Assembly: GCA_027449865.1 (NCBI GenBank)
Contig: DAIDKV010000212.1
Location: forward strand, 1 to 40,473
DNA from: Planctomycetales bacterium
Lineage (GTDB): Bacteria; Planctomycetota; Planctomycetia; Isosphaerales; Isosphaeraceae
Direction of reading: 5' to 3'
Length of the DNA: 40,473 nucleotides
Every line of letters starts with the position of its first letter. Position 1 is the stretch's first letter. Below are positions 23,688-40,344 of this stretch, one piece after another. The position numbers were made by a program, and so were the translations under genes. The notes beneath the pieces were generated by a model. The model made no database searches and was not told where the DNA came from. It saw only the letters and a list, made by a program, of their open reading frames with translations.

Positions 23688-24311
23688 TCAAGGCGGCGCG
23701 CTTCTCGAACGACCGAGCTCGATCGCTCGGGTTCTCGGATCGCGGAGATTCACGTACTCGACTCGATCGACGCGCCGTGAGGCGGTCGGGAAAAACGGGT
23801 CGACCCGCCCGAGCCTCGCCGCGTCCTCGCGCGTGGAACCTTCCGCGATCGAGGCACTTTTGAGCAGGATCAGCGACCGAGCGTCCAGGCGATCGGCGAT
23901 CCAGGCGGCGATCGAGTCGGAGGTCACGTCCCAGCAGCAGGGCAGGGGGTCGGGATCGTTCGCTTCCATCGCATCGAAAATCCGACCGGGAACCAGGATC
24001 GCGAGCTCTCCCGAGAGCGAGTGGGCGACATCTTCGAGACGATCGAGGATCCGGGCGTCTGGGAAGAGCCGACCCAGAACGTCGGCGAGAAGGTCCATCG
24101 ATCGGATCGCCAGTCGATGCGAGGCGACCTCGCCGAGGCGATGGACGCGATCAAGCTGGCGGACGACATCGGCGAACGGCCCGCCGCCGCCGAGCAAGAC
24201 CGGCTGGATGTCAGGCTCCCGCTCGCGCAGAACCTTGAGGAACCCGGTCAGGCGATGGGGAAACTCAGGCCAGTCGAGCAGGCTGCCGCCGACCTTCACG
24301 ATCGCGATCAA
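23688..24311 (-). CDS. mfnE: Amino acid kinase family protein, MfnE-like
   Basis: A 207-residue member of the aspartate/glutamate/uridylate kinase superfamily: KVGGSLLDWP at the N-terminus, VLLGGGGPFADVVRQ as the phosphate-binding loop, and CCWDVTSDSIAAWIADRL, the stretch typical of the small kinases linked to H4MPT/methanofuran clusters. In methanogens MfnE phosphorylates (5-aminomethylfuran-3-yl)methyl phosphate to the diphosphate, the substrate of MfnF. Its ATG overlaps the stop of the mfnF-like gene by four bases, which fits exactly that pair of consecutive steps. Assignment is by family plus context. The product may be a methylofuran-type cofactor rather than archaeal methanofuran. Confidence 0.85.
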   Translation of the reverse strand: MIAIVKVGGSLLDWPEFPHRLTGFLKVLREREPDIQPVLLGGGGPFADVVRQLDRVHRLGEVASHRLAIRSMDLLADVLGRLFPDARILDRLEDVAHSLSGELAILVPGRIFDAMEANDPDPLPCCWDVTSDSIAAWIADRLDARSLILLKSASIAEGSTREDAARLGRVDPFFPTASRRVDRVEYVNLRDPRTRAIELGRSRSAPP

Positions 24312-25387
24312 GACCGATCCTCCACCCCGGCCGGCTGGAAGGCGTCGACGTCGAGCTTCTCGGCCGCGAGGCGAACGACCGCGAAGGCGCAGCCCGATGC
24401 CGAGCCAGCCGGTCCCCAGGCGTCGTTGAGGCTGAGGATCGGCCCGGATGTTGGGATCAACTCGCGCGCGACCCGAGCCGCGAGGAACTCCCCCGATCCC
24501 GCCACGATCGCCGCCCGAGGCGGTCCGACCGTGGCGAGGCAGGCGCGATGCGCCTCCTCGACGAGGCGATCGGTCAAAACGCGGTCGGCGGCCATCGCCA
24601 GATCGCGGGCGTCCGCCATCGAGAAGCCCTCGCGATCGGCACCGATCATCCGGGCGAGTCGATCGCGGGCCGCATCGAGAGTCGCGGGACGGCCGTCGGC
24701 CGTCGAGAGGTCCGTCGGCTCGGCCGGAAGATCGCCCAGGATCAGGTAAAGGTCGAGCGTCGAGGCGAAGAGCTCGGCGGCCAGGCCCGTCGGCACCCCC
24801 CGATGAGGGAGCCTGGTCGCCAGGGCATGAATCGGCGTTCGACGGACCCCGGCATAGACCAGCTCGCCCGTCTGAAGGCGTTCGGTATCGGTACGTCCCC
24901 GGGCGGCGACCTCGCCCCTCGCGATCGGAATCAGATCGGTGGTCGTCGATCCGATGTCGATCAGGATCGCGGGTTCCTCGGGAACGAGCCGGGCCGCAAG
25001 CTTCGCCAGGGCCAGCCAGTTCGCCGCGGCGGCAAGCATCGGATCCGCTCGGATCACCTCGATTCGATGGAAAACCCCGTCGACCCCCCAGATCGCCATC
25101 GCCCGACCCGAGAGCGCCCGAACCGAGGCATCGAGCACCGCCCCCACGCCAACCCGCCGGGTCGGGTAACAGTCGCAGAGCTCGGCCGTCATCGTCAGCG
25201 CCACGCCTCGACTCGCCGGCAGGCTCGCGACAATCGAGCGGATGACGTCCGAGAGCTCATCAGGTCGCTTCCAGACCTCGAACGGAACCACCTTCGCCAT
25301 CCCGTCGATGTGGGCGGCCTTGATGTTCGCCCCGCCAATATCCAGGCCAATCCAGTCGCCAGCTCCGGGTCGAGTCTCCGTCTTCAT
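24308..25387 (-). CDS. mfnF: H4MPT-linked C1 pathway protein, MfnF-like
   Basis: A 359-residue hydantoinase/oxoprolinase-like protein with an actin-like ATPase fold: WIGLDIGGANIKAAHIDG at the start (phosphate 1 loop) and ILIDIGSTTTDLIPI in the middle (phosphate 2 loop). This is the family long annotated as a probable H4MPT-linked C1 transfer pathway protein. The archaeal member MfnF joins aminomethylfuran diphosphate to gamma-glutamyltyramine in methanofuran assembly. It lies between mfnD-like and mfnE-like genes with four-base ATGA overlaps on both sides, so the three are almost certainly co-translated. Confidence 0.9.
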   Translation of the reverse strand: MKTETRPGAGDWIGLDIGGANIKAAHIDGMAKVVPFEVWKRPDELSDVIRSIVASLPASRGVALTMTAELCDCYPTRRVGVGAVLDASVRALSGRAMAIWGVDGVFHRIEVIRADPMLAAAANWLALAKLAARLVPEEPAILIDIGSTTTDLIPIARGEVAARGRTDTERLQTGELVYAGVRRTPIHALATRLPHRGVPTGLAAELFASTLDLYLILGDLPAEPTDLSTADGRPATLDAARDRLARMIGADREGFSMADARDLAMAADRVLTDRLVEEAHRACLATVGPPRAAIVAGSGEFLAARVARELIPTSGPILSLNDAWGPAGSASGCAFAVVRLAAEKLDVDAFQPAGVEDRS

Positions 25388-26451
25388 GAGGCCGCCTCCT
25401 CGCGATCGAGGATCGTCCCGGCCGCGTCAAACGCGATCGCGCCTCCCGCCCGGACCTCGTCAGCCAGCCCCTCCAGCAAAATCGAATCGGGAGGCGACTT
25501 CCACGCGCCCAGCCACGCCGACGCCAGTTTTCCAGGCGAGAGAAGCCGAACGATCCCGACAACCGAGGTGGTCGGCCGAGGATTGATCTCCAGTACTTGA
25601 ACATCTCTCATTGATGGATTCCAGACGAAATCAAGGCCGACCAGCCCGCGCAAGCCCGCGACGGAATCGACGGCTTTCCGAATCGGAACGAGATCCACGG
25701 GCCCCGGAGCGGGGATACGACCTCCACGATACGCGAACCGACCCCCGGAAACGACGATGTTTTGCGAGGCGATCGCGAGAAGCCATGAACGACCGTGGAG
25801 ATCGACAAGAAATGTCGCGCTCATGGGCTGTCCGGAAATGTAAGGTTGCAGGAGGGCCTGTTCCAAGGCAAAAAAGTCCTGTGGAGTCTCGTGGAGTCCA
25901 GGGATGAGGTAGGTATCGATCGACCCCGCTCCGTCGATCGGTTTGAGGACGGCGGGGTAACGGGCCTCGCGGGGAAGGCCATCCGAGGGTCGAACGGCCT
26001 GCGAGGGAGGCGTGGGGATCCCTCGGGCCGAGAGGTGATTCGCGAGCGCGAGCTTGTCGCCGGCCAGTTCGACGGCCTCGGCCGATGAGCCGATGAGCCG
26101 TGCGCCGGCCGCTTCGAGCATCCTGGTTTGATGGACGAGAATTCCCGATGTCTCGGGCGCGATCAGCAGGGTAAGATCGCATTGCCGGGCGAGGCATGCC
26201 ACGCGATCGGCTTTGTCGACGACTCCGATCGGCTCGATGATCCAGGGCCCGGGGTCGTCGGAGAGTCGATCGTCGAGGGTGACGACGACGCGCAACCGGC
26301 CGCCTGGGATCGCGGCGAAGTCACGAGCGAGGGCACGTCGCATGGCGGTTCCCTCGTTGGCCATCGACGAGGGGATCGGTGAACCGGCGAGGCCGCCGCC
26401 GGTTATCCATTCGTAGATCAGAAGGCTTCGGACCGATGGCGATGGGGTCAC
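25384..26451 (-). CDS. mfnD: ATP-grasp ligase, MfnD-like (tyramine/tyrosine-glutamate ligase)
   Basis: A protein of about 355 residues with ATP-grasp features: GDKLALANHLSARGIPTPPS, YPAVLKPIDGAGSIDTYLI, and the metal-binding end GLDFVWNPSMRDVQVLEINP. The N-terminal LLIYEWITGGGL fits the MfnD type, which in archaea attaches glutamate to tyramine for methanofuran. In bacteria with methylofuran the acceptor may be tyrosine. I choose GTG 26451 (GGAAG nine bases upstream) over the ATG at 26499, because the latter would overlap the divergent HisA-like gene by 44 bases. The stop overlaps the mfnF-like start by four bases. Confidence 0.82.
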   Translation of the reverse strand: MTPSPSVRSLLIYEWITGGGLAGSPIPSSMANEGTAMRRALARDFAAIPGGRLRVVVTLDDRLSDDPGPWIIEPIGVVDKADRVACLARQCDLTLLIAPETSGILVHQTRMLEAAGARLIGSSAEAVELAGDKLALANHLSARGIPTPPSQAVRPSDGLPREARYPAVLKPIDGAGSIDTYLIPGLHETPQDFFALEQALLQPYISGQPMSATFLVDLHGRSWLLAIASQNIVVSGGRFAYRGGRIPAPGPVDLVPIRKAVDSVAGLRGLVGLDFVWNPSMRDVQVLEINPRPTTSVVGIVRLLSPGKLASAWLGAWKSPPDSILLEGLADEVRAGGAIAFDAAGTILDREEAAS

Positions 26452-26455
26452 GACC

Positions 26456-27196
26456 GTGGGCTTCCAGATCATCCCCGTGATCGACCTGAAGGGAGGCATG
26501 GCCGTTCATGCCGTCGGTGGTCGAAGGGACCAGTATCATCCGATCCGAAGCGTCTGGCAAGCGACCGCCGACCCAATCGCGCTGGCAAGGTCGATTCGCG
26601 AGGGGACTGGCCTGCAAACCCTCTACGTCGCCGATCTCGACGCGATTGAGGGCCGGCCCGATCATGCGGCGTTCCATGGAGCCCTGGGCCCCATCTGGCT
26701 CGATGCGGGCCTTCGCCATCGCAAGGATCTCGATCGTTTTCTCGATCGAGCGACGTTGGATTTCGTGGCCGGACTGGAGAGTGTCAACGGCCCTCGAAGT
26801 CTGGCGGGCCTCCTCGAAGCGGCCGGGGCCGATCGCCTGATCTTCAGCCTGGACCTCGACGACGGCCGACCCAGAATCGCCCCAGGCGCCGACTGGCCGG
26901 GGGTCGATCCGTTCTCGATCGTGGCCCAGGCGATCGACCTGGGTGTCCGCCGCCTGATCCTGCTCGACCTGAGGCGAGTCGGAACCGGTCGAGGCATCGG
27001 GACGGAGGAGCTTCTTTCCGAGATCCGCGCGCGATATCCTGCCGCCGAGATCGTGGCGGGAGGCGGAATCCGGGGGATGGAGGATCTCCGGTCGCTCCGC
27101 GATCGAGGGGCCTCGGGCGTCCTGATCGGCTCGGCGCTCCACGATGGGCGGATCGGCCCGACCGAGCTGGACGCATTCTTATCGAGTGGCGGTTGA
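26456..27196 (+). CDS. HisA/HisF-related TIM-barrel protein of H4MPT clusters
   Basis: A 246-residue (beta/alpha)8 barrel related to HisA: IIPVIDLKGGMAVHAVGG at the start with the first catalytic-type Asp, LIFSLDLDDGRP with the second, and AGGGIRGMEDLRSL and ASGVLIGSALHDG for phosphate binding. HisA-related proteins of this kind accompany H4MPT genes in methylotrophs and methanogens and are presumed to act in cofactor biosynthesis; the reaction is not established. True HisA of histidine synthesis is less likely given the neighbours. The start is GTG 26456, five bases from the divergent mfnD-like start. It is the only plus-strand gene in this stretch and overlaps the convergent PTPS gene by 18 bases. 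Confidence 0.88.
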   Translation: MGFQIIPVIDLKGGMAVHAVGGRRDQYHPIRSVWQATADPIALARSIREGTGLQTLYVADLDAIEGRPDHAAFHGALGPIWLDAGLRHRKDLDRFLDRATLDFVAGLESVNGPRSLAGLLEAAGADRLIFSLDLDDGRPRIAPGADWPGVDPFSIVAQAIDLGVRRLILLDLRRVGTGRGIGTEELLSEIRARYPAAEIVAGGGIRGMEDLRSLRDRGASGVLIGSALHDGRIGPTELDAFLSSGG

Positions 27197-27691
27197 CTCG
27201 CCGGCGCGGTGCTCGACGCGGGCCGACTGGCCAAAGCTCTCCTCCACCTCGACACGGAGCACGCGGGGCGTGGATAGGCCTGCTTCTCGAAGGGACGTCG
27301 CCAGCCGCCCGGCGATGTAGTCGGCGAGCAGCTCCGCGGTCGTGTTGGCGATCGGAAGAAGCACACACTCGTCGCGCGGGAAGCTCCAGTAGCGATCGCC
27401 GTATCGTGCCCGAATGTTCGATCCCTCGTCTTCGAGCCGAATGAGGCGGCTCTGAGTCGGGAGCATCATCCGGTGATCGAGCTCGTCGAGAATGGTCTTC
27501 GTCAGGTCTTTCAGCGCGATGAAGTCGATGACGTAGTGGTTCTCGTCGAGGTCACCCTCGGCCTCGACGGCGACCCGGTAATTATGCCCGTGAATCCGCT
27601 CGCACTGGCTGCCCTGATAGGTGATGAAGTGCCCCGAGCAGAAGACGAGGTAGTCCTTCGTGACGCGGACCTGGAAGGTGGCGGCTGGCAT
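27179..27691 (-). CDS. 6-pyruvoyl-tetrahydropterin synthase family protein
   Basis: A 170-residue T-fold protein from ATG 27691. The zinc site is recognisable: H21 in CSGHFI and H34/H36 in HGHNYRV. C30 in the C-x3-HGH motif is at the place of the catalytic cysteine, and LDHRMM carries the further conserved His. PTPS/QueD family enzymes convert dihydroneopterin triphosphate. In this cluster a role in the pterin half of H4MPT is likely, though it might instead serve queuosine synthesis. It lies 19 bases after the CitG-like gene on the same strand. Confidence 0.9.
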   Translation of the reverse strand: MPAATFQVRVTKDYLVFCSGHFITYQGSQCERIHGHNYRVAVEAEGDLDENHYVIDFIALKDLTKTILDELDHRMMLPTQSRLIRLEDEGSNIRARYGDRYWSFPRDECVLLPIANTTAELLADYIAGRLATSLREAGLSTPRVLRVEVEESFGQSARVEHRAGESTATR

Positions 27692-27710
27692 GGCGGGCGT
27701 GTTCCTCGGC

Positions 27711-28586
27711 TCAAACTTCGTCGATCGATCCGCCGGCGCGATGCGAGGGGACCGGCACCGGAATTGTCCCATCCCGGAGCGCCGCGTACAAGGCGGCCGT
27801 GACGAGGTCGGCGGTCGTTCCCGGATTGAATCGGCGGTCGGGATGGCGCAGCCAGTCGTCGAACTCGGCACAGCGACGAGCCGCCTCGGGGCGATTCGGC
27901 CAGCCTGCCGAGAGGATCGCCTCGGCTCGATGGGAGACCTCTCTCGCCCGGTCGAGCCCCGCCTTCCGCGCGATCAATGAGTCGGGATGCTTCGCCAGCA
28001 AGTTCAGGTGCGCCGCGACGACGGCCGTCTCGACAGGCCAGCCGCTTCGCAGGGTCGAGGCGATTGCGGGCAGGGCCTCGTCGAGAACCTCGCGGTATCC
28101 GTCCGCGTACTGGCGGGCGACGAGGTCACGGTCGGCGGCCATTGCCATGACCTCGCGAAGGGGAAGGGTTGGCTCGTCGGCGATGTCCTGATCGGAGACG
28201 GTTCCCATCCCGCCCGGATGGGCGAGGCGAATCGCTCGATAGACAGCGCGGGCGTCTTCGATGGTCGTGGTTCCCAGCACCGATTGCAGGCTCTCGCGAA
28301 GATCGATCCCATCGGGAACGGCCGCCATGGGGGCCAGCAGAAGAATCATCCCGAGGTTCGTATTCGTGGCGACGACCTTTCGCGTTTCGATCACCGCGCG
28401 TTCGACGGCCCGACCGATCCCCACGTCCCGGGTGGAATCGAGAGCCTCGCCGATCGCTGTCGCGCTGGCGAGGAAGTCGAGGAACGTCAGGCCGGGGAGA
28501 TCCCGCGAACGATGGACGTTCCCTGGCTTCGGCGCCATGACTTCGAGCAGAGAGGCCAACTGAGCTCGACGTCCCGGCCCGATCAT
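27711..28586 (-). CDS. Triphosphoribosyl-dephospho-CoA synthase-like protein (CitG family)
   Basis: A 291-residue all-helical protein of the CitG/MdcB family: LEVMAPKPGNVHRSRDL, TNTNLGMILLLAPMA and HPGGMGTVSDQDI are the diagnostic stretches. Classical CitG makes the ribosylated prosthetic group of citrate lyase, but no citrate or malonate lyase gene is nearby. Homologues of this kind are regular members of bacterial H4MPT clusters, where a ribosyl-phosphate transfer step in cofactor assembly is a reasonable guess. I place the start at ATG 28586, which overlaps the upstream stop (ATGA); the in-frame ATG at 28613 lies inside the preceding gene. Confidence 0.9.
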   Translation of the reverse strand: MIGPGRRAQLASLLEVMAPKPGNVHRSRDLPGLTFLDFLASATAIGEALDSTRDVGIGRAVERAVIETRKVVATNTNLGMILLLAPMAAVPDGIDLRESLQSVLGTTTIEDARAVYRAIRLAHPGGMGTVSDQDIADEPTLPLREVMAMAADRDLVARQYADGYREVLDEALPAIASTLRSGWPVETAVVAAHLNLLAKHPDSLIARKAGLDRAREVSHRAEAILSAGWPNRPEAARRCAEFDDWLRHPDRRFNPGTTADLVTAALYAALRDGTIPVPVPSHRAGGSIDEV

Positions 28587-29476
28587 CGTTTTTTCCCTCG
28601 GTCGAGCAGGCATTCGAGAACCGCGGTGGCGACGTCCAGGCCCGTGACCCGTGAAATGGCCCGCCAGCCTGGGACGGCGTTGACCTCCAGAACGACCGGC
28701 CGATTCCGATCCAGGTCATGGATCACGTCGACTCCGGCGACCACGGCACCGACCGCGCGGGCGGCCCGGATCGCGAATTGTTCCTCGGAGGAATCAAGCC
28801 GGAAGGCTTCCGCGTGTCCGCCGAGTGAGATGTTTGTCCGCCACTCACCCATCGGCGCCGATCGCTTCATCGCGCCAAAAACGACCCCGTCGATGACAAG
28901 GACACGGAGGTCGAAGCCAGGATGCCGAACGACTCGCTGCAAATAGAGAACACCTCCAGTTCGCTCGATCGCGTGGAAGGCCCGCCAGGCCAGTTCGCGA
29001 TCGCCGACTCGCAGAAGCCCGCGTCCCTCCGAGCCAAAGAGCGGCTTGACGATCACGTCGCCGCCCATCGCCTCGAACACCTCCATCGCCGAGGCCGCCG
29101 ACTGACCGGCCCACGACTCGGGGACTTCGAGGCCCTCGGCTTCGATCAACGCCAGCGAAAGATACTTGTCCACGGCGGCCTCGACCGCGCGGGGAGGGTT
29201 CACGATCGGCACGCCCGAGGCCGCGAGACGGTGCAGCATGTCCATCCGGAAGACGATCGGCTCCAGACCGCCGGGAGGCATCATCCGAACAAGAACTCCA
29301 TCGACCTGTTTCAGATCGATCGATCCGGCCCGGATCTCGCGACGGCTTCCGACGGTCGCCGAGACCTCGCCGAAGGGGATCGCGTGCAGTTCGACGTCAA
29401 GCCGACGCGAGGCCCGTTGCAGGTCCTCGACGTGCCAGCCGAGCCCGGATACGAGCGCCGCCACGGTTTTCCTCAT
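28583..29476 (-). CDS. RimK-type ATP-grasp ligase, MptN-like
   Basis: About 297 residues from ATG 29476 with the RimK/ATP-grasp layout: VNPPRAVEAAVDKYLSLALI, VIVKPLFGSEGRGLLRV (the ATP-binding loop) and FDLRVLVIDGVVFGAMKR, ending in VVAGVDVIHDLDRNRPVVLE. RimK-like enzymes add glutamate to a carboxyl group; the archaeal MptN adds glutamate to tetrahydromethanopterin. In bacterial H4MPT clusters a tail-modification role is assumed. The frame is open to ATG 29551, but that would overlap mch by 58 bases and adds a non-family extension. Coupled to the CitG-like gene by an ATGA overlap. Confidence 0.87.
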   Translation of the reverse strand: MRKTVAALVSGLGWHVEDLQRASRRLDVELHAIPFGEVSATVGSRREIRAGSIDLKQVDGVLVRMMPPGGLEPIVFRMDMLHRLAASGVPIVNPPRAVEAAVDKYLSLALIEAEGLEVPESWAGQSAASAMEVFEAMGGDVIVKPLFGSEGRGLLRVGDRELAWRAFHAIERTGGVLYLQRVVRHPGFDLRVLVIDGVVFGAMKRSAPMGEWRTNISLGGHAEAFRLDSSEEQFAIRAARAVGAVVAGVDVIHDLDRNRPVVLEVNAVPGWRAISRVTGLDVATAVLECLLDRGKKR

Positions 29477-29493
29477 CGTCTCCGAAGTCCCGA

Positions 29494-30438
29494 TCAAAGG
29501 AAGAACGACCGCTCCAGGACGCCGGGCTCGAGCCGTCCGAAGGTCCAGCATCGGCCCGTTTCCACGTTCTGAAACGAGACCTGCGCGGGACTGAAGAGGT
29601 GCGGATCGACGGCGTAGAAGTCGTGATTGTATCGCGCGAAGATCTGGGCGAACGGCTCGCCGTGGTCGCGCGAAGCCATCGACGGTACCTTCGGCCCCAT
29701 TGCTTCCAGGCTTGCGTCGTCGCCCGAGACCATGAGGACGACTCTCGCCCCATAGAGGATCGCGTCGTTGGTCCGGCCGATCGCGGCGAGGTCGCTGGCC
29801 GCGACCGGGGGAAGAGGTGCCCAGCCATGCGCGGAGAGGATCCGCGACAGATCAAATTTCAGTTCGGCGAGCTTGTGCAGCGCCGTCTCTACCGACCGCG
29901 CCACAATCTGAACGCCCCCAGCGAGGCTTGCCGTCGGCGCGGCGAGCAGGGTCACGGCCGAGGGTTTCACCCGGCACGCCTCGGCGATCTTTTCGAAGAC
30001 CGCGGCTGTCGGCGGCTTGCTGGTCTCCAGAATCCCGACGACAAACGAAGGCTCCTCGCGATGACCGATGGTCTCGAAAATCGCCTCGGTTCCGGCGGCG
30101 GCCCGCATCGGCCCCGATCCCATCGCGAAGAACTTTCCCTCCTGGATCGACCATCCGGCGTACTGGCTCGCCAGGCAGGCGCGGACCGGATGGTCGGTCA
30201 CGACATGAACCATCGATACGGGATGACCGGCCACCTCACCGGGGATCAGCTCAACGTCGGCCAGCGAGGCGAGGCAGCACCTCGCCAGCTCGATGCCTGT
30301 CCTCAGGCCCCCGCGGACAGAGATTCCGCAGTCGATGAACCGGCCACCGCCCTCGATCGGATAGACCACGGTCCGGTAATCGTCGGACATCATCGCGAGG
30401 ACCTCGGCGATCCCCATGGCTTCTTCGTTGAGACTCAT
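29494..30438 (-). CDS. mch: Methenyl-tetrahydromethanopterin cyclohydrolase
   Basis: This 314-residue protein matches Mch in length and sequence character: SLNEEAMGIAEVL at the start, VYPIEGGGRFIDCGISVRGG, ASQYAGWSIQEGKFFAMGSG and LLAAPTASLAGGVQIVARSVE. Mch hydrolyses methenyl-H4MPT to 5-formyl-H4MPT in the cytoplasm, the step just before formyl transfer by the Ftr/Fhc complex encoded directly upstream. The ftr stop is 44 bases before this start and the RimK-like gene begins 17 bases after its stop, so it belongs to the same transcription unit. I see no disrupted motif. Confidence 0.96.
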   Translation of the reverse strand: MSLNEEAMGIAEVLAMMSDDYRTVVYPIEGGGRFIDCGISVRGGLRTGIELARCCLASLADVELIPGEVAGHPVSMVHVVTDHPVRACLASQYAGWSIQEGKFFAMGSGPMRAAAGTEAIFETIGHREEPSFVVGILETSKPPTAAVFEKIAEACRVKPSAVTLLAAPTASLAGGVQIVARSVETALHKLAELKFDLSRILSAHGWAPLPPVAASDLAAIGRTNDAILYGARVVLMVSGDDASLEAMGPKVPSMASRDHGEPFAQIFARYNHDFYAVDPHLFSPAQVSFQNVETGRCWTFGRLEPGVLERSFFL

Positions 30439-30482
30439 CGTTTCGCCTCCGAACGCGGAATCTTGCGGCCGCGGAAAGCCGA

Positions 30483-31385
30483 TCAGACCGGCTCTCCATA
30501 TCGATCGAGCACGTCGAGCAGGCGGATGTGAAAGGGCCCGAGGTTCCCTCCGTAATTGCCGGCGGTCACCCCGAGCACCCCAGGTTGCCCGGCCGCCGTC
30601 TGAACCCCGACCGCCGTGGCACGCTCGACCGCTTCCATGGTCAGACCATCGATCACGATTTCATACGCACAGGTGGCCTCCGCTGGAAGATCGGTCGTGA
30701 CCACTCCGCGGAGCATGGGAGCGAACGCGGTGTTCGTGCTGGCGCGCAATGCCCTGTACTTGCTCCCGACCTTTGAGCCCGACCGTGCGATCCCGCCCGG
30801 GAACGGCAGGATCACGTCACGGCATCTCGCCCGAATGGCCTGGACGGCCGACTCGGTGGCCGCGAGCGTCCGCGAGGGATCGTTGCCCATCACGATCAGG
30901 TTCCCGCCCGCGACGCCCTTGACCGTGCCGAAGGCTTCTTCACAGAGGAATTCGCCGTCCATGACCGGGATTCGCCAGTATCGACGCTCGCCGATCCATT
31001 TCGAGATTTGCCATCCGTCACCGAAGTAGCGGAGCCGTCCACCAACCACGATCGACTTTTCCGCGACGGGAAGTCCGTTATAGCAGGCGGATGTCGGGCA
31101 GGTCATCACACACTGGCCGACGCGATTTGTCAGAGATTTCTCCAGCGCGTCGCGCGAAAAAGCGAAGACGAGGACGCTGCAACCGGGGCGTCCGTCGGGG
31201 GTCTCGGCGGGATCGAGGATTCGTTCCAGTGCGGCCTCGGCGTCGCAGGCGATCACGCTGGTCGCGTAGCCCGACATCGTCCGCGCGGCGGTCTCGGCCC
31301 AGGCGGGCGTATCGGCCGTCAGGATCGCTCGGGCGGCGGTCATTGGAAACGCCTCGGCGAAGGTGTCGACGACGATCGGGATCAC
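30483..31385 (-). CDS. fhcD: Formylmethanofuran-H4MPT formyltransferase (FhcD/Ftr)
   Basis: A 300-residue protein, the usual length for Ftr. It starts at GTG 31385, which overlaps the fhcA stop by four bases (GTGA) and gives the family-typical start VVDTFAEAFPM. Other conserved stretches are FGDGWQISKWIGERRYWRIP, GTVKGVAGGNLIVMG, FPGGIARSGSKVGSKY and the C-terminal GNYGGNLGPFHIRL. The enzyme moves the formyl group between H4MPT and the furan cofactor. As part of the bacterial formyltransferase/hydrolase complex it works with FhcA, B and C to release formate. Confidence 0.97.
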   Translation of the reverse strand: MIPIVVDTFAEAFPMTAARAILTADTPAWAETAARTMSGYATSVIACDAEAALERILDPAETPDGRPGCSVLVFAFSRDALEKSLTNRVGQCVMTCPTSACYNGLPVAEKSIVVGGRLRYFGDGWQISKWIGERRYWRIPVMDGEFLCEEAFGTVKGVAGGNLIVMGNDPSRTLAATESAVQAIRARCRDVILPFPGGIARSGSKVGSKYRALRASTNTAFAPMLRGVVTTDLPAEATCAYEIVIDGLTMEAVERATAVGVQTAAGQPGVLGVTAGNYGGNLGPFHIRLLDVLDRYGEPV

Positions 31386-32986
31386 GGGACAACCTCCGAT
31401 TCTCCGATCGTATCGGCCTCCACGGGGTAGTTCCGCCACCGGATCGAGTACGAGCTCTCAAACCATTTTTGCAGATCGGGCTCGACACCTCGGTCGTAAT
31501 CGGGCGCGACATGCAGCGTTCTTCCGCGCGTCGCCTCCCGTATCTCACCCTGCTCGACGACAATACGCCCTCGGTGGATCACGTACCGGGGCAGGGCAAA
31601 CATCACTTCGGGATCGGGGTCGGGCGTGTAGATCGTCACGTCGGCGTCGGCACCGATACCGAGGTGGCCCTTGTTCGTCAGTCCGAGCATCCGGGCCGGG
31701 CCAGCCCGGGTGATGATCGCGATCTCAGAGAGACTGTATTGCCGATCCAGATCGCGCAGGACCGACCGCTCTCGGACCTCGGCGGGCAACGCCGCGAGGG
31801 CGTCTTTCCGGAACGTCGCATCCATCAAAAGCTTGATGATCCGCGGATAGGCGAGGAACGACCCGCCGTTGGGATGATCGGTGCTCATCGCGATTCGCCA
31901 GGGGTCGCGTGCGAGCAAGAACCATTCCAGGCCGATGGCCCATTGCCAGGCGTGGACCGCGGTTGTATTCCGGTACTCGATCGGCGCGACCCCGCAGCCG
32001 GTCTCCTGTTCGATGTCGTTGCTGTACCACTTCGTCCCATACAGCCGACCGAGAAAGTGACCGACTGGCCCATCCGCCGTCATCCCGATCGCCGGCCCGA
32101 AGACGATCTGCCCGACGTCAACCGTCAGGTTCGGATGATCGTTTAAATACTCGACCAGCGGACCAACCTTCGATCCAAAGGTGGATTCATCTCCGTCGCC
32201 GCCGTCGTAGCTGTGGAACTGAATGTGCGCCATGTGGGCACGATGGCCCTCGAGACGCTTCATGGTTTGAAGCGTCGTGGTCCAGTTCCCCGGTAGGCCG
32301 AGGTTCAGCGTATGCACATGGACCGGATGTGGAAGTCGCAGCTCGTCAGCCGCCCAGGCCACCGAGGCGAGAATCTGGCCAGGCGTCACCTCGAAATGAT
32401 CGACCCGCGTCTCGAGATCGCGGGCGTTCCCCTCGGGCCGATTCTTCCAGTTCTCGACACCGCCCGGATTCACCAGCTTGGCCGCGAATCCCTTCGAGGC
32501 ACCGAGCAACCAGCCGACAAAGGCCTTTAGCCGGTCCGGCTCATTCTGCCGGATCGCTCGCATGATGTAGTGATTATTTCCCATCAGGGCAAAGAATCCG
32601 CGATCGATGCAGGGCGTGTCGACCAGTTCCTCGTGGGCATGCCGGGCGGCAAGCGGGGCAATCGCGGCGTCAAAGGCGGTCGTATAGCCGAGTCCGGCGT
32701 AGCGGAGTCCGGTGCTGGTCGTGCTCGGGATGATCTCCCCATGCTCGGGGCACATCATCCGCGCGGCGTTGACCTTCGAGCCCACGATATGGCAGTGCAT
32801 GTCCACACCGCCGGGCATGACGACCAGTCCCTTGGCATCAATCGTCCGTGCCGGCCGGGTCTCGAAATCGCTCGGGGCTTCAACGATCTTCCCTCCGGAC
32901 ATCCAGAGGTCGCGCACCTCTCCATCGATCCCGTTAGCCGGGTCGTACACCGTCCCACCGGCGATCTTCAGGAATTCCGGGATCAT
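31382..32986 (-). CDS. fhcA: Formylmethanofuran hydrolase subunit A (FhcA)
   Basis: A 534-residue amidohydrolase-fold protein. The metal-binding HxH is H64/H66 in GGVDMHCHIVGS, and K170 in GFAAKLVNPGG is at the place expected for the carboxylated lysine bridging the two metals. HPVHVHTLNLGLPGN and IAMSTDHPNGGSFLAYPRII supply the further His and Asp ligands. Subunit A hydrolyses the formyl-furan cofactor to formate. Both junctions are four-base overlaps (fhcC upstream, fhcD downstream), which fits a tight stoichiometric complex. The length matches FwdA/FhcA proteins. Confidence 0.97.
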   Translation of the reverse strand: MIPEFLKIAGGTVYDPANGIDGEVRDLWMSGGKIVEAPSDFETRPARTIDAKGLVVMPGGVDMHCHIVGSKVNAARMMCPEHGEIIPSTTSTGLRYAGLGYTTAFDAAIAPLAARHAHEELVDTPCIDRGFFALMGNNHYIMRAIRQNEPDRLKAFVGWLLGASKGFAAKLVNPGGVENWKNRPEGNARDLETRVDHFEVTPGQILASVAWAADELRLPHPVHVHTLNLGLPGNWTTTLQTMKRLEGHRAHMAHIQFHSYDGGDGDESTFGSKVGPLVEYLNDHPNLTVDVGQIVFGPAIGMTADGPVGHFLGRLYGTKWYSNDIEQETGCGVAPIEYRNTTAVHAWQWAIGLEWFLLARDPWRIAMSTDHPNGGSFLAYPRIIKLLMDATFRKDALAALPAEVRERSVLRDLDRQYSLSEIAIITRAGPARMLGLTNKGHLGIGADADVTIYTPDPDPEVMFALPRYVIHRGRIVVEQGEIREATRGRTLHVAPDYDRGVEPDLQKWFESSYSIRWRNYPVEADTIGESEVVP

Positions 32987-33810
32987 GCCAGCCCACCACC
33001 CTCCCGCGTCCAGATTTCACCCTTGCCCAGCGAGAGCAGGTCCCCATGATAGAGATCCAGTTTCCCGCTCGGCCAGTCTACCCCCGCGAAGCCCGTGCGT
33101 CGGAGCTCCCGTTCGATGAGGGCCAGAAATTGCGGTCGAAATCGACCGGCTCGCCGGAAGGTCGGGAGCAACGGGACCGGTCCGCCGCCGAAGAGCCCGA
33201 TCGTCCCGCGCCGCATCTCCGCGCCCGGATATCGCCCGCATGACCCAAAAACGAGGATCGTCCCGGCGATCATTCCGAGCCCGGCGTGATCGCCGCAAGC
33301 GCCGCCGATCGCGATCGTCCCTCGTCTCATGGACCGGCCGATCTCGGCTCCGGCGGAACCCCCGACCAGGATCGTTCCGTTCGTCATCCCGCGCCTCGAG
33401 CCGGGGTACGAGGCTCCCACGAGATCTCCGACAGACCCGCATATTGATACGTGGCCATTTGTCATTTCGGCGCCGACCCAGTCGCCGGCATCGCCGGAGA
33501 CCTCGATCGTTCCCCCGCTCATTTGTGCCGCTAGGTGCCACCCAGTGCAACCATCGACGACGATTCGCCCCGCCGACATCTGCGCGCCGATTCGATGAAC
33601 GTTCCGGAGATTTCCCTCGAAGTCGATCCGCTCGTCCGAGGGATCGCCCTTGATCTGGAAGACCTCGGCGAGAGGAACGGTGCGGTTCCCGTGCCGAATG
33701 GGAAATCGCCCGATCTCGGCCGGGGGCATACCGCGAAGTCGATCGGGCCGGACACCGATGACCTCGATGGGAAGGTCGGATTCGTCGGTTCGCCTCAGGA
33801 GGAGTGCCAC
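32983..33810 (-). CDS. fhcC: Formylmethanofuran hydrolase subunit C (FhcC)
   Basis: A 275-residue protein with the right-handed beta-helix repeat of FwdC/FhcC and glutamate-synthase alpha C-terminal domains: repeated motifs such as GAQMSAGRIVVDG, GTIEVSGDAGDWVGAEMTNG, GTILVGGSAGAEIG and GTIAIGGACGDHAGLGM. It has a structural role in the formyltransferase/hydrolase complex, holding subunits A, B and D together. The start lies three bases after the fhcB stop and the stop overlaps the fhcA start. Confidence 0.96.
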   Translation of the reverse strand: MALLLRRTDESDLPIEVIGVRPDRLRGMPPAEIGRFPIRHGNRTVPLAEVFQIKGDPSDERIDFEGNLRNVHRIGAQMSAGRIVVDGCTGWHLAAQMSGGTIEVSGDAGDWVGAEMTNGHVSICGSVGDLVGASYPGSRRGMTNGTILVGGSAGAEIGRSMRRGTIAIGGACGDHAGLGMIAGTILVFGSCGRYPGAEMRRGTIGLFGGGPVPLLPTFRRAGRFRPQFLALIERELRRTGFAGVDWPSGKLDLYHGDLLSLGKGEIWTREGGGLA

Positions 33811-33813
33811 GGC

Positions 33814-35103
33814 TCAGGCCCTCCGCTCGCGGACGCGATGCTCGATCGATCGAAGGACGGCCTCAACTGTAGGGAATCGCGAGGCAACCACGGCCCGCAA
33901 GGGCAGGGGGACGCCGTCCATCCGGTAGACGGTGCCGCTCGTTTCGATGCCGAAGGCGGCCGTCCGGATGACCACCTCGGCGGCTTGCGGATGGGGTTCC
34001 TGGTTTCCTGTCAGCAGGACTCGGGGAATCTTGCGTCTGACCTCTGTTGTCGGCTCGTTGTCCATCACCATCGGATTACCTGAGACGACCAGCACCGCGT
34101 CAGCCGCGGTCGCAGAAGGCAGTCCGGCGTCGGATGAAAGAGGTCCTTGACCCTCAACGAAGCGGACCGCGCCCGGGAGGCCCGTCCGCCAGGTCAGCAC
34201 GTTCCGCGCTCCGACCCCATTCCCCCCAGAATGGAGCGGCATGACGACGAACCGCGTCCTTTCGTTGAGCTCGCGCACCAGCGAATGGATTCCTCGAACC
34301 GAGAGGCCATTCGAGCGGCCGTCGTAGAGGATCGCACCATAACGTGCCGCACGAAATCGCTCGACCAGGGCTTGCCAGTCCTTGAGGGCCACTCCCGCGA
34401 TCTGTTCGGCCTCGATTGCGATCCCCTTGACCAGCGCGCGAAGTAACCAGAGAGCCTCGACCTCGGCACCCTCGTCCATCGGGATCGCCAGGTCGGCCTC
34501 TTTCAGGGTCGTCGTCTCTCGGATGTCGACGACAGCCAGGAAGCGATCGTTGCGACCGCCTGGGAGAAAATCGCTCCTGGGCTCGAGCACGTGTCGGGAG
34601 AATAGGCGGGGGTGTGTTCGAACCGGATCGGCCCGCCAGATGAGCACGAAATCGGCCCGGTTCTGAATTTCGCCCAGGGTGCACGTCACCTCGCCGACCG
34701 ATTGGAGCGATAAGATTGTCGCGGAAACCCCGGGGACTTCGAGGCCTCCCCCGATCGACTCGGCAAGCTCGACCGCAGCTCGATGACCCTCGGTCGTGCA
34801 TTCCTGCAAACCGATCACGAGCGGGCAGGAAGCCCCGGCGAGTAGGATCGCGGCTCGTTCGACAGCCTCGTCGAAGTTTGCCGGCTCTCCATGAATCCAG
34901 GCTTCAGGACCATCGCCCCGACGATTCCCAAGGAAATGCCCCTCGCCAATCGAGCAGGCGCCCTGGGCCTCGAGAATCCGGTCTCCTTTGACTTTCACCA
35001 CGATGTCGTCGCAGAGGCATCCACACGCGGTGCAGACCGAGTCGGGCCAGATCCTCCGATCATCGACCGTCCGACTCGGGTCCATCTTGCTCGCACCCTC
35101 CAC
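33814..35103 (-). CDS. fhcB: Formylmethanofuran dehydrogenase-like subunit B (FhcB)
   Basis: A 429-residue protein homologous to the molybdopterin-type subunit B of archaeal formylmethanofuran dehydrogenase. The N-terminal motif C24-x2-C27-x3-C31 and C50 (DSVCTACGCLCDDI, GACSIG) look like the [4Fe-4S] ligand set. The segment corresponding to the archaeal metal-ligand cysteine reads IGLQECTTEGHRAAVE, where I align Thr rather than Cys at the ligand position, so it is probably not a redox catalyst, as in the other bacterial hydrolytic complexes. First gene of the operon; GTG 35103 (AGGA close upstream) or ATG 35085 (GGAGG about 11 bases upstream) are both possible starts. Confidence 0.94.
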   Translation of the reverse strand: MEGASKMDPSRTVDDRRIWPDSVCTACGCLCDDIVVKVKGDRILEAQGACSIGEGHFLGNRRGDGPEAWIHGEPANFDEAVERAAILLAGASCPLVIGLQECTTEGHRAAVELAESIGGGLEVPGVSATILSLQSVGEVTCTLGEIQNRADFVLIWRADPVRTHPRLFSRHVLEPRSDFLPGGRNDRFLAVVDIRETTTLKEADLAIPMDEGAEVEALWLLRALVKGIAIEAEQIAGVALKDWQALVERFRAARYGAILYDGRSNGLSVRGIHSLVRELNERTRFVVMPLHSGGNGVGARNVLTWRTGLPGAVRFVEGQGPLSSDAGLPSATAADAVLVVSGNPMVMDNEPTTEVRRKIPRVLLTGNQEPHPQAAEVVIRTAAFGIETSGTVYRMDGVPLPLRAVVASRFPTVEAVLRSIEHRVRERRA

Positions 35104-35187
35104 GGTTCCTTCGAGACTTTGGCAATATGAGGACTGGTTCCGATTCTGCGAGGGGCCTGTTCCCGTCTTGTCGGAGCCGCTCGGCGG

Positions 35188-36425
35188 TCATCTTACCGCA
35201 GCCGCCGCGGGATCGCCACGATCAGAGCCTTGTCCAGCCGCTTCGAGCGACGCGATCGCCTCGCGTGCGATGGATTCGGCAATCACCTCGTTACCCGCCT
35301 CCGTTGTGTGGCAATAATCGATGAAGAGGAGACCAGGATGATTGTCGAGGGCGTGACTCAGGTCGTGGAAACAGGGAACGGTTCGTAGACCATTGGAGAC
35401 CCGAACGGCCTCGTAAACCTCCAGAAGGAAGGGACGGGCCCAGGCGAGCTGCTCGGCCGCTTCTCGCTCGAAGGGGACGGTCCGCTTCTTCTCAAAAACA
35501 GTCGGGTGCCAGAAGTGGAGCGAGCGGAAGCCGAAACCTTTTCCGAGTTGTTCCACCATACGCAAGGTTGGCCTGGTATCTTCGGACGACCTGGGCGGCC
35601 AGTTCGTGTCGACGCTCGGGTGCAGGTAAGGTCGACTCTGGACCTCTGGGAGGCAAGATCCGGTAGCCAATGGATTGAGCCAGTCGAAGGCTGGCGGAAT
35701 CTCCGACCAGTCGGCCGATCAGGGCGGCCCCAAGGCCGAGACGGCGACCGTCGGATGTTGAACTCAGCGAGGCGGTTTCGCTCGTTCGTCGTCAGACCGG
35801 CCTCGCCTTCAAGCAGCGCCGAGGTACTCTCATTGACGCCGTCGTAAAAAATGACCAGGGCGGGAGGGCCACCCGATTGAAGTTCACGCACCAGCGCGAC
35901 GACCTCCTGCGTACTGACTTAACCAATCTCCGAGAAGTTGCCCACGATGGCCTGGATTCCGTGTGCATGGATCTTTTGGGCGACGAGCGAGGGGATGGTC
36001 TGGTCGTCGCGCGCTCCGAATCCCCAGAGCGACGAACCGCCGAACATCCAGATCCGTGACGGACGACGATGGGCATCCGCGGTCGGATCACGGGGCGATT
36101 GCCATCTCTTTCGGAATCCTCGCTCGTCGATCGTGATCGTCTGGCCGGCGATGGGACGCTGGCGAAAGTAGACGTAGGGCTCCCACCTCACCGAGAGACG
36201 TTCGAGTTCCTGGTAGTGCCGGATCGGCCAGGTCTCGCCCCCATACCCCTCGGCAATCACCCGAGGATCGGGGATCGTTCTGCCTGCCATCTGGTCCTTG
36301 ACGAAAAAGACCAGGCGCAGGCTTCCCTCGAGAAAGAGAATAACGAACAGCGTCAGGCCGACGATCATCCACGCCGATCCCATCCAGCGGAAGACACCCT
36401 GGGTTCGTCGTAGGAAGCTGGTCAT
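35188..36425 (-). pseudogene. Broken SGNH/GDSL-type hydrolase gene
   Basis: Reading from ATG 36425 gives an N-terminal membrane segment (WMIVGLTLFVILFLEGSLRL) and a hydrolase start (RIWMFGGSSLWGFGARDDQT). An in-frame TAA at 35919-35921 cuts the frame after NFSEIG; the same frame then resumes with VSTQEVVALVREL and PPALVIFYDGVNE. Near 35757 coding sense moves to another frame (SDGRRLGLGAALIG), and near 35563 to a third (MVEQLGKGFGFRSLHFWHP), ending with LLFIDYCHTTEAGNEVIAES, the usual catalytic Asp-His block. One nonsense codon and two one-base shifts make about 412 codons non-functional. The family is common in planctomycetes. The lesions could in part be assembly errors. Confidence 0.85.
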
Positions 36426-36524
36426 GGGGTTCTCTCGGCTTGTCGGCGCCTGAGGTTGGGGATAACGTGGAGCTTGCGATAAAAAACTCTATGTCAACCA
36501 GGCATCGCGGGGCCAGGGCAGTCC

Positions 36525-37313
36525 GTGTCCCGAGCTTGCCGATCCGGGGTCGAGACGTTGGAAGCTAGAGGCTGTCGAGCGATCGTGCTGGGCTCGACGT
36601 CGGGAATCGGGCGTGCCGTGGCTCTCGAACTGGCCGCCGCCGGGGCTGACGTTATTGTCCACGGGCATCGTGCTCCTGAGGCGGCCGAGGAGGTTGCCGA
36701 CCGGGTACGCCGGTATGGCGTCCGCTCCCATGTTTTGATGGCCGACCTGGCTGATCGAGAGGCTGGCGACGATCTGGTTCGAAGCGCCTGGTCCATCTGG
36801 GACGGACTTGATGCGTGGCTCCACATCGCCGGTGCCGATACCCTGACGGGCCCAGGGGCTCAGCTTTCGTTCGACCAGAAACTGGATCGTCTCTGGGCTG
36901 TCGACGTGGCCGCTACTGTTCGCTTGTGCCGGTCTGTGGGACGTCTGATGAAGGCGGCCGGCGGTGGTCGCATCGTGACGATGGGCTGGGACCAGGCCGA
37001 GACAGGCATGGAGGGAGACTCGGGCGAACTCTTCGCGGCGACGAAGGGTGCGATCATGGCCTTTACTCGAAGTCTGGCCTTGAGCCTCGCTCCGGAAGTC
37101 CTGGTCAATGGCCTCGCTCCGGGCTGGATTCAGACGAGCTGGGGTGAGTTGGCCTCGTCGACCTGGCAAGACCGCGTCGTACGCGAGACGCCAATGGCGC
37201 GATGGGGCACGCCGGAGGATGTCGCCCGCGTCGCCCGGTTTCTGGCTGGCCCCGGGTCGAACTTTCTCACCGGGCAGATCCTCCGCGTCAACGGCGGCGC
37301 CGTCCGAGGCTAG
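36525..37313 (+). CDS. Short-chain dehydrogenase/reductase with altered active site
   Basis: A 262-residue SDR-fold protein. The NADP-binding loop is present (VLGSTSGIGRAVALELAAAG), and the C-terminal NFLTGQILRVNGG is typical. The catalytic tetrad is not: Tyr is replaced by Phe (F170 in LFAATKGA, K174 kept), no Ser is seen at the usual place (VTMGWDQAE), and the helix-4 Asn appears to be Asp (WAVDVAAT). It heads a four-gene plus-strand H4MPT operon, so reduction of a pterin intermediate such as dihydromethanopterin is a possible role. The start GTG 36525 has AGGG eight bases upstream; TTG 36555 is an alternative. Confidence 0.87.
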   Translation: MSRACRSGVETLEARGCRAIVLGSTSGIGRAVALELAAAGADVIVHGHRAPEAAEEVADRVRRYGVRSHVLMADLADREAGDDLVRSAWSIWDGLDAWLHIAGADTLTGPGAQLSFDQKLDRLWAVDVAATVRLCRSVGRLMKAAGGGRIVTMGWDQAETGMEGDSGELFAATKGAIMAFTRSLALSLAPEVLVNGLAPGWIQTSWGELASSTWQDRVVRETPMARWGTPEDVARVARFLAGPGSNFLTGQILRVNGGAVRG

Positions 37314-37331
37314 TTGGGAGCCAACCTGCTC

Positions 37332-38768
37332 ATGTCGGATCGGCCGCGATACCTGTTCGTCACGGGACGGCTCGCCGAGTTTGCCCTCCGGGGTATTCTC
37401 GAGCGGATGGCTCCAACCGCCGCGTTCACGGCTGAGGTTGCCGTCATGCCGATTACCGTCGCGGCCTTGATGACCCCGAGATGGGTCGCTCGAAATCTTG
37501 AGGTTCCCCCGGGCATCGATCGGGTGATTCTCCCTGGGCTCTGCGCCGGCGACCTGCAACCTGTTCGCGATCGCGCACCCGGAATTCCCGTCGAACGAGG
37601 ACCGGCCGATCTGGGCGACCTGCCCCGTTTCCTCTCACAAGACGACCGCGTGCTCGACGATTACGGCGACTATCGGATCGAGATTCTTGCAGAGATCAAC
37701 CACGCCCCCCGGCTCTCGATCGACGAACTGGTCCGTCTGGCAAGGCAATTTCAGACGGAGGGTGCCGACGTGATCGACCTCGGATGCGATCCCGCTGCAC
37801 GTTGGAAAGCCGTGGGTGATGCCGTCTCCGCCCTGAGAGACTCTGGATTGAGGGTCTCGATCGATAGTTTCCATGGCGATGAGGTGGCCGATGCGACGGC
37901 TTCGGGAGCTGAGCTCGTATTGAGCGTCGATGGCACAAACCGGGAGTCATCGGTTGACTGGGGTGTTGAGGTCGTCGCGATCCCCGATCGACCCGGTACG
38001 CTCGATGGGCTCGACGAGACAGTCGAATTCCTCTCGGCTCGCGGTGTGCGATTTCGAATCGACCCGATCCTCGAACCCATCGGGTTTGGCTTCGCCGCGT
38101 CGCTCGGACGTTACCTCGAAACACGCCGACGCTATCCCGAGGCGCGGATGATGATGGGGATCGGCAATCTCACCGAGCTGACGGACACGGATTCGGCGGG
38201 CGTCAACACGCTCCTTATCGGCTTCTGCGAGGAACTGGCGATCGAGAGCGTTTTGACAACCGCCGTGATCAACTGGGCGCGGACCTCTGTCCGCGAGATC
38301 GACCTGGCACGTCGCCTGGCTCATTACGCCGTCGCCCGTCGTAGGCTTCCCAAGCACGTTGAGCCCCGGCTTGTGATGCTCCGAGATCCCAGGCTCACCG
38401 AGCAGGGGGCCGCGAACCTCGAAGAACTCCGGCGCCGAATTCGGGACCCGAACTGGAGGATCTTCGCCGAGGGCGGTGAGATCCACGCTCTGAACAACCA
38501 GCACTATCTGCGCGGCCGCGATCCCTTTGTGCTGTTCGAGCAGACGGGTGTCGAGGATGCCTCGCATGCCTTCTATCTCGGGCATGAGATGATGAAAGCC
38601 ACCACCGCCTTGACGCTGGGGAAGAATTACCGGCAGGATCAGGCGCTGGAGTGGGGCTTTCTGACCGTCCCGGAAGTCAGTCATCGCGAGCGTCGGAAAA
38701 GAGACCGCGAACCCAACGCCGCGCCGGGATCCTTAGCGTCGCCGAATCAGGCCGAGGAGCCGGTGTGA
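37332..38768 (+). CDS. DUF6513 / dihydropteroate-synthase-like protein
   Basis: A 478-residue protein from ATG 37332. It has an N-terminal domain of the DUF6513 type (YLFVTGRLAEFALRGILERM) and a dihydropteroate-synthase-like barrel beginning AEINHAPRLSIDELVRLARQ with GADVIDLGCDP and LRVSIDSFHGDEV. The long C-terminal part (about 320-478) contains NWRIFAEGGEIHALNNQHYL. Such proteins are constant members of bacterial H4MPT clusters and are thought to join the pterin to the ribofuranosylaminobenzene unit, the analogue of folate DHPS. A TTG at 37314 is an alternative start. The stop overlaps the DUF447 start by four bases. Confidence 0.92.
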   Translation: MSDRPRYLFVTGRLAEFALRGILERMAPTAAFTAEVAVMPITVAALMTPRWVARNLEVPPGIDRVILPGLCAGDLQPVRDRAPGIPVERGPADLGDLPRFLSQDDRVLDDYGDYRIEILAEINHAPRLSIDELVRLARQFQTEGADVIDLGCDPAARWKAVGDAVSALRDSGLRVSIDSFHGDEVADATASGAELVLSVDGTNRESSVDWGVEVVAIPDRPGTLDGLDETVEFLSARGVRFRIDPILEPIGFGFAASLGRYLETRRRYPEARMMMGIGNLTELTDTDSAGVNTLLIGFCEELAIESVLTTAVINWARTSVREIDLARRLAHYAVARRRLPKHVEPRLVMLRDPRLTEQGAANLEELRRRIRDPNWRIFAEGGEIHALNNQHYLRGRDPFVLFEQTGVEDASHAFYLGHEMMKATTALTLGKNYRQDQALEWGFLTVPEVSHRERRKRDREPNAAPGSLASPNQAEEPV

Positions 38769-39376
38769 TACTCGAAGGGATCGTGACAACCCTGAATGCC
38801 AGCGATTCGGTGAACGTGGCTCCGATGGGCCCTGAAGTCCCTGATATGGGCGTTCTCGAGCGGTTCGTCCTCCGTCCGTATCGCAGTTCTACCACTTACG
38901 CCAATCTCAAGGCCCGAGGTGAAGGTGTACTGCACGTCACTGACGACGTCCTTCTGCTCGCACAGACGGCGATCGGCGTGACCCCCAACCCCTTCCCGAC
39001 TGTCCGACCTGCAAGTGTCGTCGAGGGCGCCATCCTCTCGGATGCCTGCCGATTTTACGAATTCCGGGTGATCGAGCTGGATGATCGGGAAGACCGCACC
39101 CTGATCGTGGCCGAGACTGTGGCAGAAGGCCGCCAGCGCGACTTCTTCGGTTTCAACCGGGCCAAGCACGCCGTACTGGAAGCGGCTATCCTCGCCACTC
39201 GCACGGCCTGGCTCCCGGTTCGAGACCTCCTCCTCGAATTCCGGAAGTTGGAAATCCTGGTACACAAGACAGGCGGGGCGTCTGAACATGCCGCCTTCAC
39301 CCTCCTCCAGAATTACCTGCGCGAGGCCGCGAAAAGCCAGGGGCTCGATCCCGACCTGAGGCCCTCACCGCCATGA
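38765..39376 (+). CDS. DUF447 family protein
   Basis: A 203-residue protein starting at GTG 38765 in a GTGA overlap with the preceding gene: VILEGIVTTLNASDSVNVAP. It matches the DUF447 family, known from methanogens and H4MPT-using bacteria, which has a split-barrel flavin-binding-like fold. Its function is not established. In this operon, directly between the DHPS-like gene and mptG, a role in H4MPT synthesis is likely. A frame open upstream to 38651 lies wholly inside the previous gene and is not used. Confidence 0.92.
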   Translation: MILEGIVTTLNASDSVNVAPMGPEVPDMGVLERFVLRPYRSSTTYANLKARGEGVLHVTDDVLLLAQTAIGVTPNPFPTVRPASVVEGAILSDACRFYEFRVIELDDREDRTLIVAETVAEGRQRDFFGFNRAKHAVLEAAILATRTAWLPVRDLLLEFRKLEILVHKTGGASEHAAFTLLQNYLREAAKSQGLDPDLRPSPP

Positions 39377-40344
39377 GCTCCGAAAGGTTGACCATCAGGA
39401 CTCCGGCCCGATTGCACTTCGGCTTACTCGGCTGGGGACCGGGACTGGCTCGGCAATTCGGCGGGCTCGGTCTGATGATCGAGGAGCCAGCCATTGAAAT
39501 CCTCGCGGAATGCTCGTCAAAAACGCGGATCACGGGCCTGCTTGCCGAGCGTGCCGCTCGAATCCAGGAAATCGTGCGAGCGCGCCTCGCCGATCAAAAT
39601 ATCAAGGTTCCATGCTTTCATCTCCAGATTTCCAAGGCTCCGCCGGAGCATGTCGGACTCGGGGTTGGAACACAACTGAGCCTGTCGATTGCCGCGGCAG
39701 CCTACCATCTTGCGGGACAATCTGTGCCCCCAGCGAGCCATCTCGCTCGATTGACGGGTCGTGGGATGCGTTCGGGGATCGGCCTTCACGGCTTCGATCA
39801 CGGCGGATTGATCGTCGATGGAGGCCGCAAAGGCTCCGACGATGTACCAGCCATGATCATTCGACTGGAATTCCCGCTGGAATGGTCAATCGTTGTCATA
39901 CGTCCTCTCAAGGAGCGAGGGCTCCACGGCCAGCAGGAAATCGAGGCGTTTCGTGACCTACCCGCAGTTCCGCCGGGTTTCACGGAAAAGCTCTGTCGGA
40001 CGATCCTCCTGGATCTACTGCCAAGCGTTGCGGCGGCGAATCTTCTGGATTTTGGCATGGCACTCGAGGAACTCCAGCGCGAGGTTGGTGGTGCCTTCGC
40101 ACCGGCGCAGGGCGGGATTTTTCAGCCGCGGCAAGCCCATGAGATCTTCGAGGAATGCCGAAAGGCCGGGCTGGTCGGATGCGGTCAGAGTTCCTGGGGA
40201 CCGACAATCTATGCCTTCAGTGAACAACCACGATCCGAGGTCGAGCGATTGGTGCGGAAACTCGAGGAAAGACTCGGTATCGGGAACAGCTCAATCATGA
40301 TCACCAGAGCCACGAATCGTGGTGCGGAGATTCTCGCAAAGTGA
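39373..40344 (+). CDS. mptG: Beta-ribofuranosylaminobenzene 5'-phosphate synthase
   Basis: A 323-residue GHMP-kinase-fold protein. RTPARLHFGLLG at the start and PPEHVGLGVGTQLSLSIAAA in the nucleotide-type loop are diagnostic of RFAP synthase. It condenses 4-hydroxybenzoate or 4-aminobenzoate with PRPP, releasing CO2 and pyrophosphate, the first committed step on the arylribose side of H4MPT. The ATGA overlap with the DUF447 gene shows tight coupling. Last gene of the plus-strand operon; no terminator of its own is visible before the minus-strand hairpin at 40397-40430. Confidence 0.95.
   Translation: MSSERLTIRTPARLHFGLLGWGPGLARQFGGLGLMIEEPAIEILAECSSKTRITGLLAERAARIQEIVRARLADQNIKVPCFHLQISKAPPEHVGLGVGTQLSLSIAAAAYHLAGQSVPPASHLARLTGRGMRSGIGLHGFDHGGLIVDGGRKGSDDVPAMIIRLEFPLEWSIVVIRPLKERGLHGQQEIEAFRDLPAVPPGFTEKLCRTILLDLLPSVAAANLLDFGMALEELQREVGGAFAPAQGGIFQPRQAHEIFEECRKAGLVGCGQSSWGPTIYAFSEQPRSEVERLVRKLEERLGIGNSSIMITRATNRGAEILAK

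Follow-up and report, generated by a model that had tools for sequence, protein, structure and literature searches.

Gene content and order of the island

The window, which is the whole stretch of DNA that was analysed (40,473 nucleotides), is the entire contig C212 of a Planctomycetales MAG (G000; 8.48 Mb, 278 contigs, 99.4% complete). Genes were called by profile matches to curated models, and the scores are given against the equivalog cut-offs. An earlier note on this DNA had named at least 13 genes for H4MPT and furan-cofactor synthesis and for the formyl branch of C1 oxidation within 17 kb. All of them were found where they had been placed, with curated-model support, and positions 23688-40344 contain 16 C1 and cofactor genes in intact form and one further gene that is broken:

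23688..24311, minus: mfnE-like, amino-acid-kinase fold (proteobacterial Orf21); PF00696 40 bits; NF040622 (MfnE) 77 bits, below the cut-off of 300
24308..25387, minus: mfnF-like/Orf9, H4MPT-linked C1 pathway protein; TIGR03123 271 bits, above cut-off; NF040623 177 bits
25384..26499, minus: mfnD-like ATP-grasp, MyfA/OrfY counterpart; PF02655, PF18301; NF040722 74 bits, below cut-off
26456..27196, plus: Orf17, HisA/HisF-like; PF00977 109 bits; TIGR00734 114 bits
27179..27772, minus: PTPS/QueD-family pterin enzyme; PF01242 83 bits; start set by codon scoring
27711..28586, minus: CitG-like, triphosphoribosyl-transferase family; PF01874 232 bits; putative role in cofactor synthesis
28583..29551, minus: RimK-like glutamate ligase, MyfB/Orf5 or MptN counterpart; NF040720 237 bits (cut-off 350); TIGR00768 184 bits
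29494..30438, minus: mch, methenyl-H4MPT cyclohydrolase; TIGR03120 386 bits, above cut-off; PF02289 389 bits
30483..31439, minus: fhcD, formylmethanofuran:H4MPT formyltransferase; TIGR03119 412 bits, above cut-off
31382..32986, minus: fhcA, hydrolase subunit; TIGR03121 659 bits, above cut-off; aligned to the 8rja FwdA-type chain
32983..33810, minus: fhcC; TIGR03122 252 bits, above cut-off
33814..35103, minus: fhcB; TIGR03129 289 bits, below the cut-off of 327.8, still clear; aligned to 5t5i_B
35188..36425, minus: broken SGNH-hydrolase-like gene between fhcB and SDR; in-frame stop near 35919 and a frameshift
36525..37313, plus: short-chain dehydrogenase/reductase (SDR); PF13561 148 bits
37314..38768, plus: dihydropteroate-synthase-like (DHPS-like); TIGR00284 162 bits, below cut-off; PF20123, PF14251
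38765..39376, plus: DUF447 protein; PF04289 65 bits; PF20766 42 bits
39373..40344, plus: mptG, beta-RFAP synthase; TIGR00144 173 bits, above the cut-off of 113.5; NF040726 191 bits, below cut-off

The minus strand carries fhcB, fhcC, fhcA, fhcD and mch, followed by the RimK-like, CitG-like, PTPS, mfnD, mfnF and mfnE genes; the HisA-like Orf17, between PTPS and mfnD, is on the plus strand and opposed to its neighbours. The SDR-DHPS-DUF447-mptG block is on the plus strand and divergent from fhc. The features of a bacterial H4MPT/methylofuran island are present: fhcABCD and mch occur together, the H4MPT synthesis genes mptG, DHPS-like and PTPS are all there, and mfnD/E/F, Orf5 and Orf17 lie in the window, with mfnB on contig C184 of the same genome. 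Several of these cofactor genes score below the equivalog cut-offs, although MfnE, MfnD and the RimK-like protein are still clear matches. The Mch-located loci of other planctomycetes contain the same gene set, and several keep the order, down to the reversed Orf17 and the SGNH-like gene. The family scores and the gene order kept across related genomes exclude a chance origin. The earlier note was right to see a planctomycete H4MPT/furan-cofactor and Fhc/Mch island. It is the Isosphaeraceae form of the bacterial 'archaeal-like' H4MPT/methylofuran C1 set, ordinary for the family and of a known kind.

The island of Methylorubrum extorquens shares with the window fhcABCD, mch, an mptG-type synthase and the orf5/orfY/orf9/orf17/orf21 set; G000 has mfnB (orf22) away from the island. 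However, the FhcB of the window is longer, with the N-terminal Cys motif, and fae and mtd were not found in the assembly, whereas the PF09176 dehydrogenase of its relatives is encoded at a separate locus. H4MPT genes of planctomycetes, including MtdC, were described by Chistoserdova and colleagues (PMC5020050, PMC3505017). The pathway and the phylum are the same here and PF09176 is common among the relatives, whereas the G000 assembly is without mtdC and canonical fae.

Beyond mfnE, three genes at 21416-23641 (an FAD oxidoreductase, a YkgJ-like protein and a 102-aa protein) are syntenic in the locus L020, and the gene of the 102-aa protein also follows mfnE in L027 and L030. A protein with collagen triple-helix repeats (PF01391) is encoded at 20034-21446, and a transposase-like open frame with high GC3 is found at the contig end (254-1351).

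Cofactor synthesis and the Fhc complex

In proteobacterial methylotrophs, methylofuran requires Orf5 (MyfB), OrfY (MyfA) and Orf17, the last shown in Methylorubrum; Orf9, Orf21 and Orf22 correspond to MfnF, MfnE and MfnB (PMC8141765). By sequence, the best fits in the window are the RimK-like protein for MyfB (Orf5), the HisA-like protein for Orf17 and the mfnD-like protein for MyfA (OrfY). The CitG-like protein, by analogy with CitG chemistry, could form a ribosyl glycosidic bond of H4MPT. A pterin carbinolamine dehydratase (PCD)-like gene is located on contig C113. Afp is unrecognised in planctomycetes (PMC5020050), and dihydromethanopterin reduction could fall to the SDR or the DUF447 protein. 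Among the relatives the SDR has 72-79% identity, and their alignment showed Phe at the position of the catalytic Tyr in YxxxK. A role as substitute dehydrogenase is unlikely, since relatives from a family that normally has MtdC carry this SDR too.

FhcA aligns with FwdA along its whole length (8rja FwdA-type chain), and the HxH, Lys, His and Asp positions, which we take to be the metal ligands in FwdA, are kept. FhcB matched archaeal-type FwdB with 215 bits and the short chain 6s6y_B with just 62 bits. In the alignment to 5t5i_B the position of FwdB Cys118, presumably the tungsten ligand, is a gap in FhcB; the N-terminal Cys motif is retained, as it is in FhcB of two related genomes (G002 and G005). 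The window thus shares subunits A, B and C with the archaeal formylmethanofuran dehydrogenase Fwd/Fmd, and its FhcB is nearer to the archaeal-type FwdB; however, the tungsten-ligand Cys is missing, and the formyltransferase FhcD is encoded alongside, as in bacterial Fhc. Because the metal ligands of FhcA are kept and FhcB is without this Cys, the complex is expected to hydrolyse rather than oxidise, and FhcB would have no redox activity. Fhc should be a formyltransferase/hydrolase linking formyl-H4MPT and formate.

Together, the island would encode the synthesis of H4MPT and of the furan cofactor, plus the formyl branch. Mch would interconvert methenyl-H4MPT and formyl-H4MPT, the furan cofactor would receive the formyl group through FhcD, and hydrolysis by FhcA would yield formate, if the flux runs in this direction. 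In most relatives canonical Fae and MtdC would make and oxidise methylene-H4MPT.

Entry enzymes in the source genome and its relatives

Neither fae nor mtd lies within the window, just as the earlier note had observed. It had suggested that the entry of carbon must be encoded elsewhere or be different, and the former proved right for the relatives: nearly all have an MtdC-type dehydrogenase at a locus apart from the island, usually beside canonical fae. This locus often has the order fae1-mtdC; DUF1464 follows downstream, and the fae side carries a small gene, an ATP-grasp gene and a Zn-peptidase gene. In the G000 assembly no such locus was found. The proposed genome search for fae, mtd and methanol dehydrogenase returned no match to the MtdA/B/C-type dehydrogenase (PF09176) or to the archaeal-type Mtd (PF01993) in G000, no MtdC by protein search and no canonical Fae with the catalytic His; the sole Fae homologue is the His-less paralogue Fae2 on contig C18 of this MAG. 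A concatenated query of G000 found DUF1464 (C110) and PCD, and did not find MtdC, canonical Fae or the ATP-grasp neighbour. The PQQ proteins of G000 scored below the methanol-dehydrogenase cut-off (TIGR03075), and the highest-scoring of them is a better match to TIGR03074, although it misses that cut-off as well. The C89 protein, a PQQ dehydrogenase, was set aside as a methanol dehydrogenase, since the glucose/quinate group fits better.

PF09176 was found in 135 of the 148 relatives' genomes, including the congeners G002 and G004. The relatives with mch and without PF09176 are G005, G118 and G129, plus the less complete G001, G011 and G025; six other PF09176-less genomes are also without mch. 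Therefore, mch without mtdC is uncommon and not unique. G118 has both Fae1 and Fae2, whereas G129 has mch and no match to PF09176 or to any Fae, a state similar to that of G000. For G005 a second loss and a gap are equally likely, since its contig begins with a neighbour of fae1.

In G000 DUF1464 adjoins groEL, as in the sister genome G001. Two flanks of the locus have other surroundings. The Zn-peptidase gene (C261), which G001, G002 and G003 have in linkage with the ATP-grasp gene, is in the interior of a 59-kb contig with an esterase-like gene upstream, and the counterpart (C97) of a glycosyltransferase-like gene that neighbours mtdC in G003 is interior to a 160-kb contig without mtdC. Since both flanks are internal to long contigs with other neighbours, rearrangement and loss are favoured. 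The explanation that we prefer, and regard as moderately probable, is that the entry of formaldehyde was lost in this species: the fae1-mtdC locus would have disappeared after local rearrangement, leaving a Mch/Fhc module that is kept under selection. Against it, the MAG is fragmented into 278 contigs, and, with no input step recognised, it is metabolically hard to see why intact mch and fhc genes would be kept under selection unless something feeds the module.

A fae1-mtdC segment of about 4 kb might be present in the organism and missed by assembly or binning, and the pathway would then serve ordinary formaldehyde oxidation or detoxification as in the relatives. The wide occurrence of PF09176 among the relatives fits this, and such a segment is easily lost among so many contigs. 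Moreover, the sister contigs break exactly at these genes (G001 ends in fae1, G003 starts in mtdC, and G005 begins with the neighbour of fae1), so this segment may easily be lost in assembly. However, no partial fae1 or mtdC match was found at any contig end of G000, both sister-defined flanks lie inside long contigs, and the completeness is 99.4%. We consider a gap a serious candidate, although somewhat improbable. Formaldehyde oxidation, against which the earlier note would have counted the absence of any dehydrogenase or fae from the complete genome, is likely the family-wide role; for this assembly it is not supported.

The island might instead be a decaying remnant of the lost pathway. 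The SGNH-like gene is broken here, whereas two relatives have it unbroken (407 and 426 aa) in the corresponding place, and fae1 and mtdC were not found. However, none of the 16 C1 and cofactor genes has a disrupted open frame, and dN/dS between G000 and its sister species is low: 0.035-0.043 for mch, 0.06-0.08 for fhcA and about 0.15 for fhcD, with the partner loci (L017 and L018) assigned to G001 and G003 because contig numbers and coordinates match. Strong purifying selection has acted on mch and fhcA, and the module has been kept in this lineage, as averaged over the time since divergence, a measure that is blind to the date of a recent loss. Decay is thus highly improbable, and the loss of the entry step from a module that is kept under selection is still the preferred reading.

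The Fae2 paralogue and the input of the module

The Fae homologue on C18 has 182 aa; it shares 35% identity with Fae1 and 81-94% with Fae2 of the closest relatives. Aligned to the Fae structure of Methylorubrum (1y5y), it has AEPE in place of the AHID motif, and Glu replaces the His that we take to be catalytic in Fae. This His is absent from all Fae2-type sequences aligned, including plasmid homologues of Methylobacterium, Azospirillum and Phyllobacterium. Nevertheless, the C18 protein passes the NCBIfam Fae cut-off (124 vs 118 bits), and automated annotation could therefore wrongly call the pathway complete. This misleading paralogue and the apparent absence of the pathway entry from G000 are what is new here.

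Across Isosphaeraceae Fae2 is conserved, with 73-94% identity in most genomes. A 62%-identical homologue is encoded on a plasmid of Methylobacterium (DM1), beside genes annotated as glutamine amidotransferase, glxC, glutamate synthase and glnT, which are probably N-methylglutamate-pathway genes. In Methyloversatilis, Fae3 was proposed as a C1 shuttle (PMC5023235). It is conceivable that Fae2 feeds the pathway, as an active enzyme or by shuttling C1 units, and that another dehydrogenase oxidises methylene-H4MPT, for example FolD, for which G000 has one clear gene. However, the catalytic His is replaced in every aligned Fae2-type sequence, most relatives have Fae2 in addition to Fae1 and MtdC, and the fae2 and fae3 mutants of Methyloversatilis grow normally, whereas the fae1 mutants do not (PMC5023235). 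Feeding by Fae2 is therefore clearly improbable.

The role of H4MPT/methanofuran reactions outside methylotrophs and methanogens has been called enigmatic (PMC5020050). If a genome carried the formyl branch and both cofactors yet no known entry, the two parts of the pathway would be set apart and a direct test would be at hand. Rather doubtfully, a selected Mch/Fhc module without canonical Fae or a known methylene-H4MPT dehydrogenase may connect formate with formyl- and methenyl-H4MPT; the His-less Fae2 might serve it as a carrier or shuttle. Partial copies of Fae2 were also observed near fae2 in G003 and G004, and the locus L003 contains, 0.9 kb downstream of fae2 (12130-12225), a 32-aa piece that is 88% identical to the Fae2 C-terminus.
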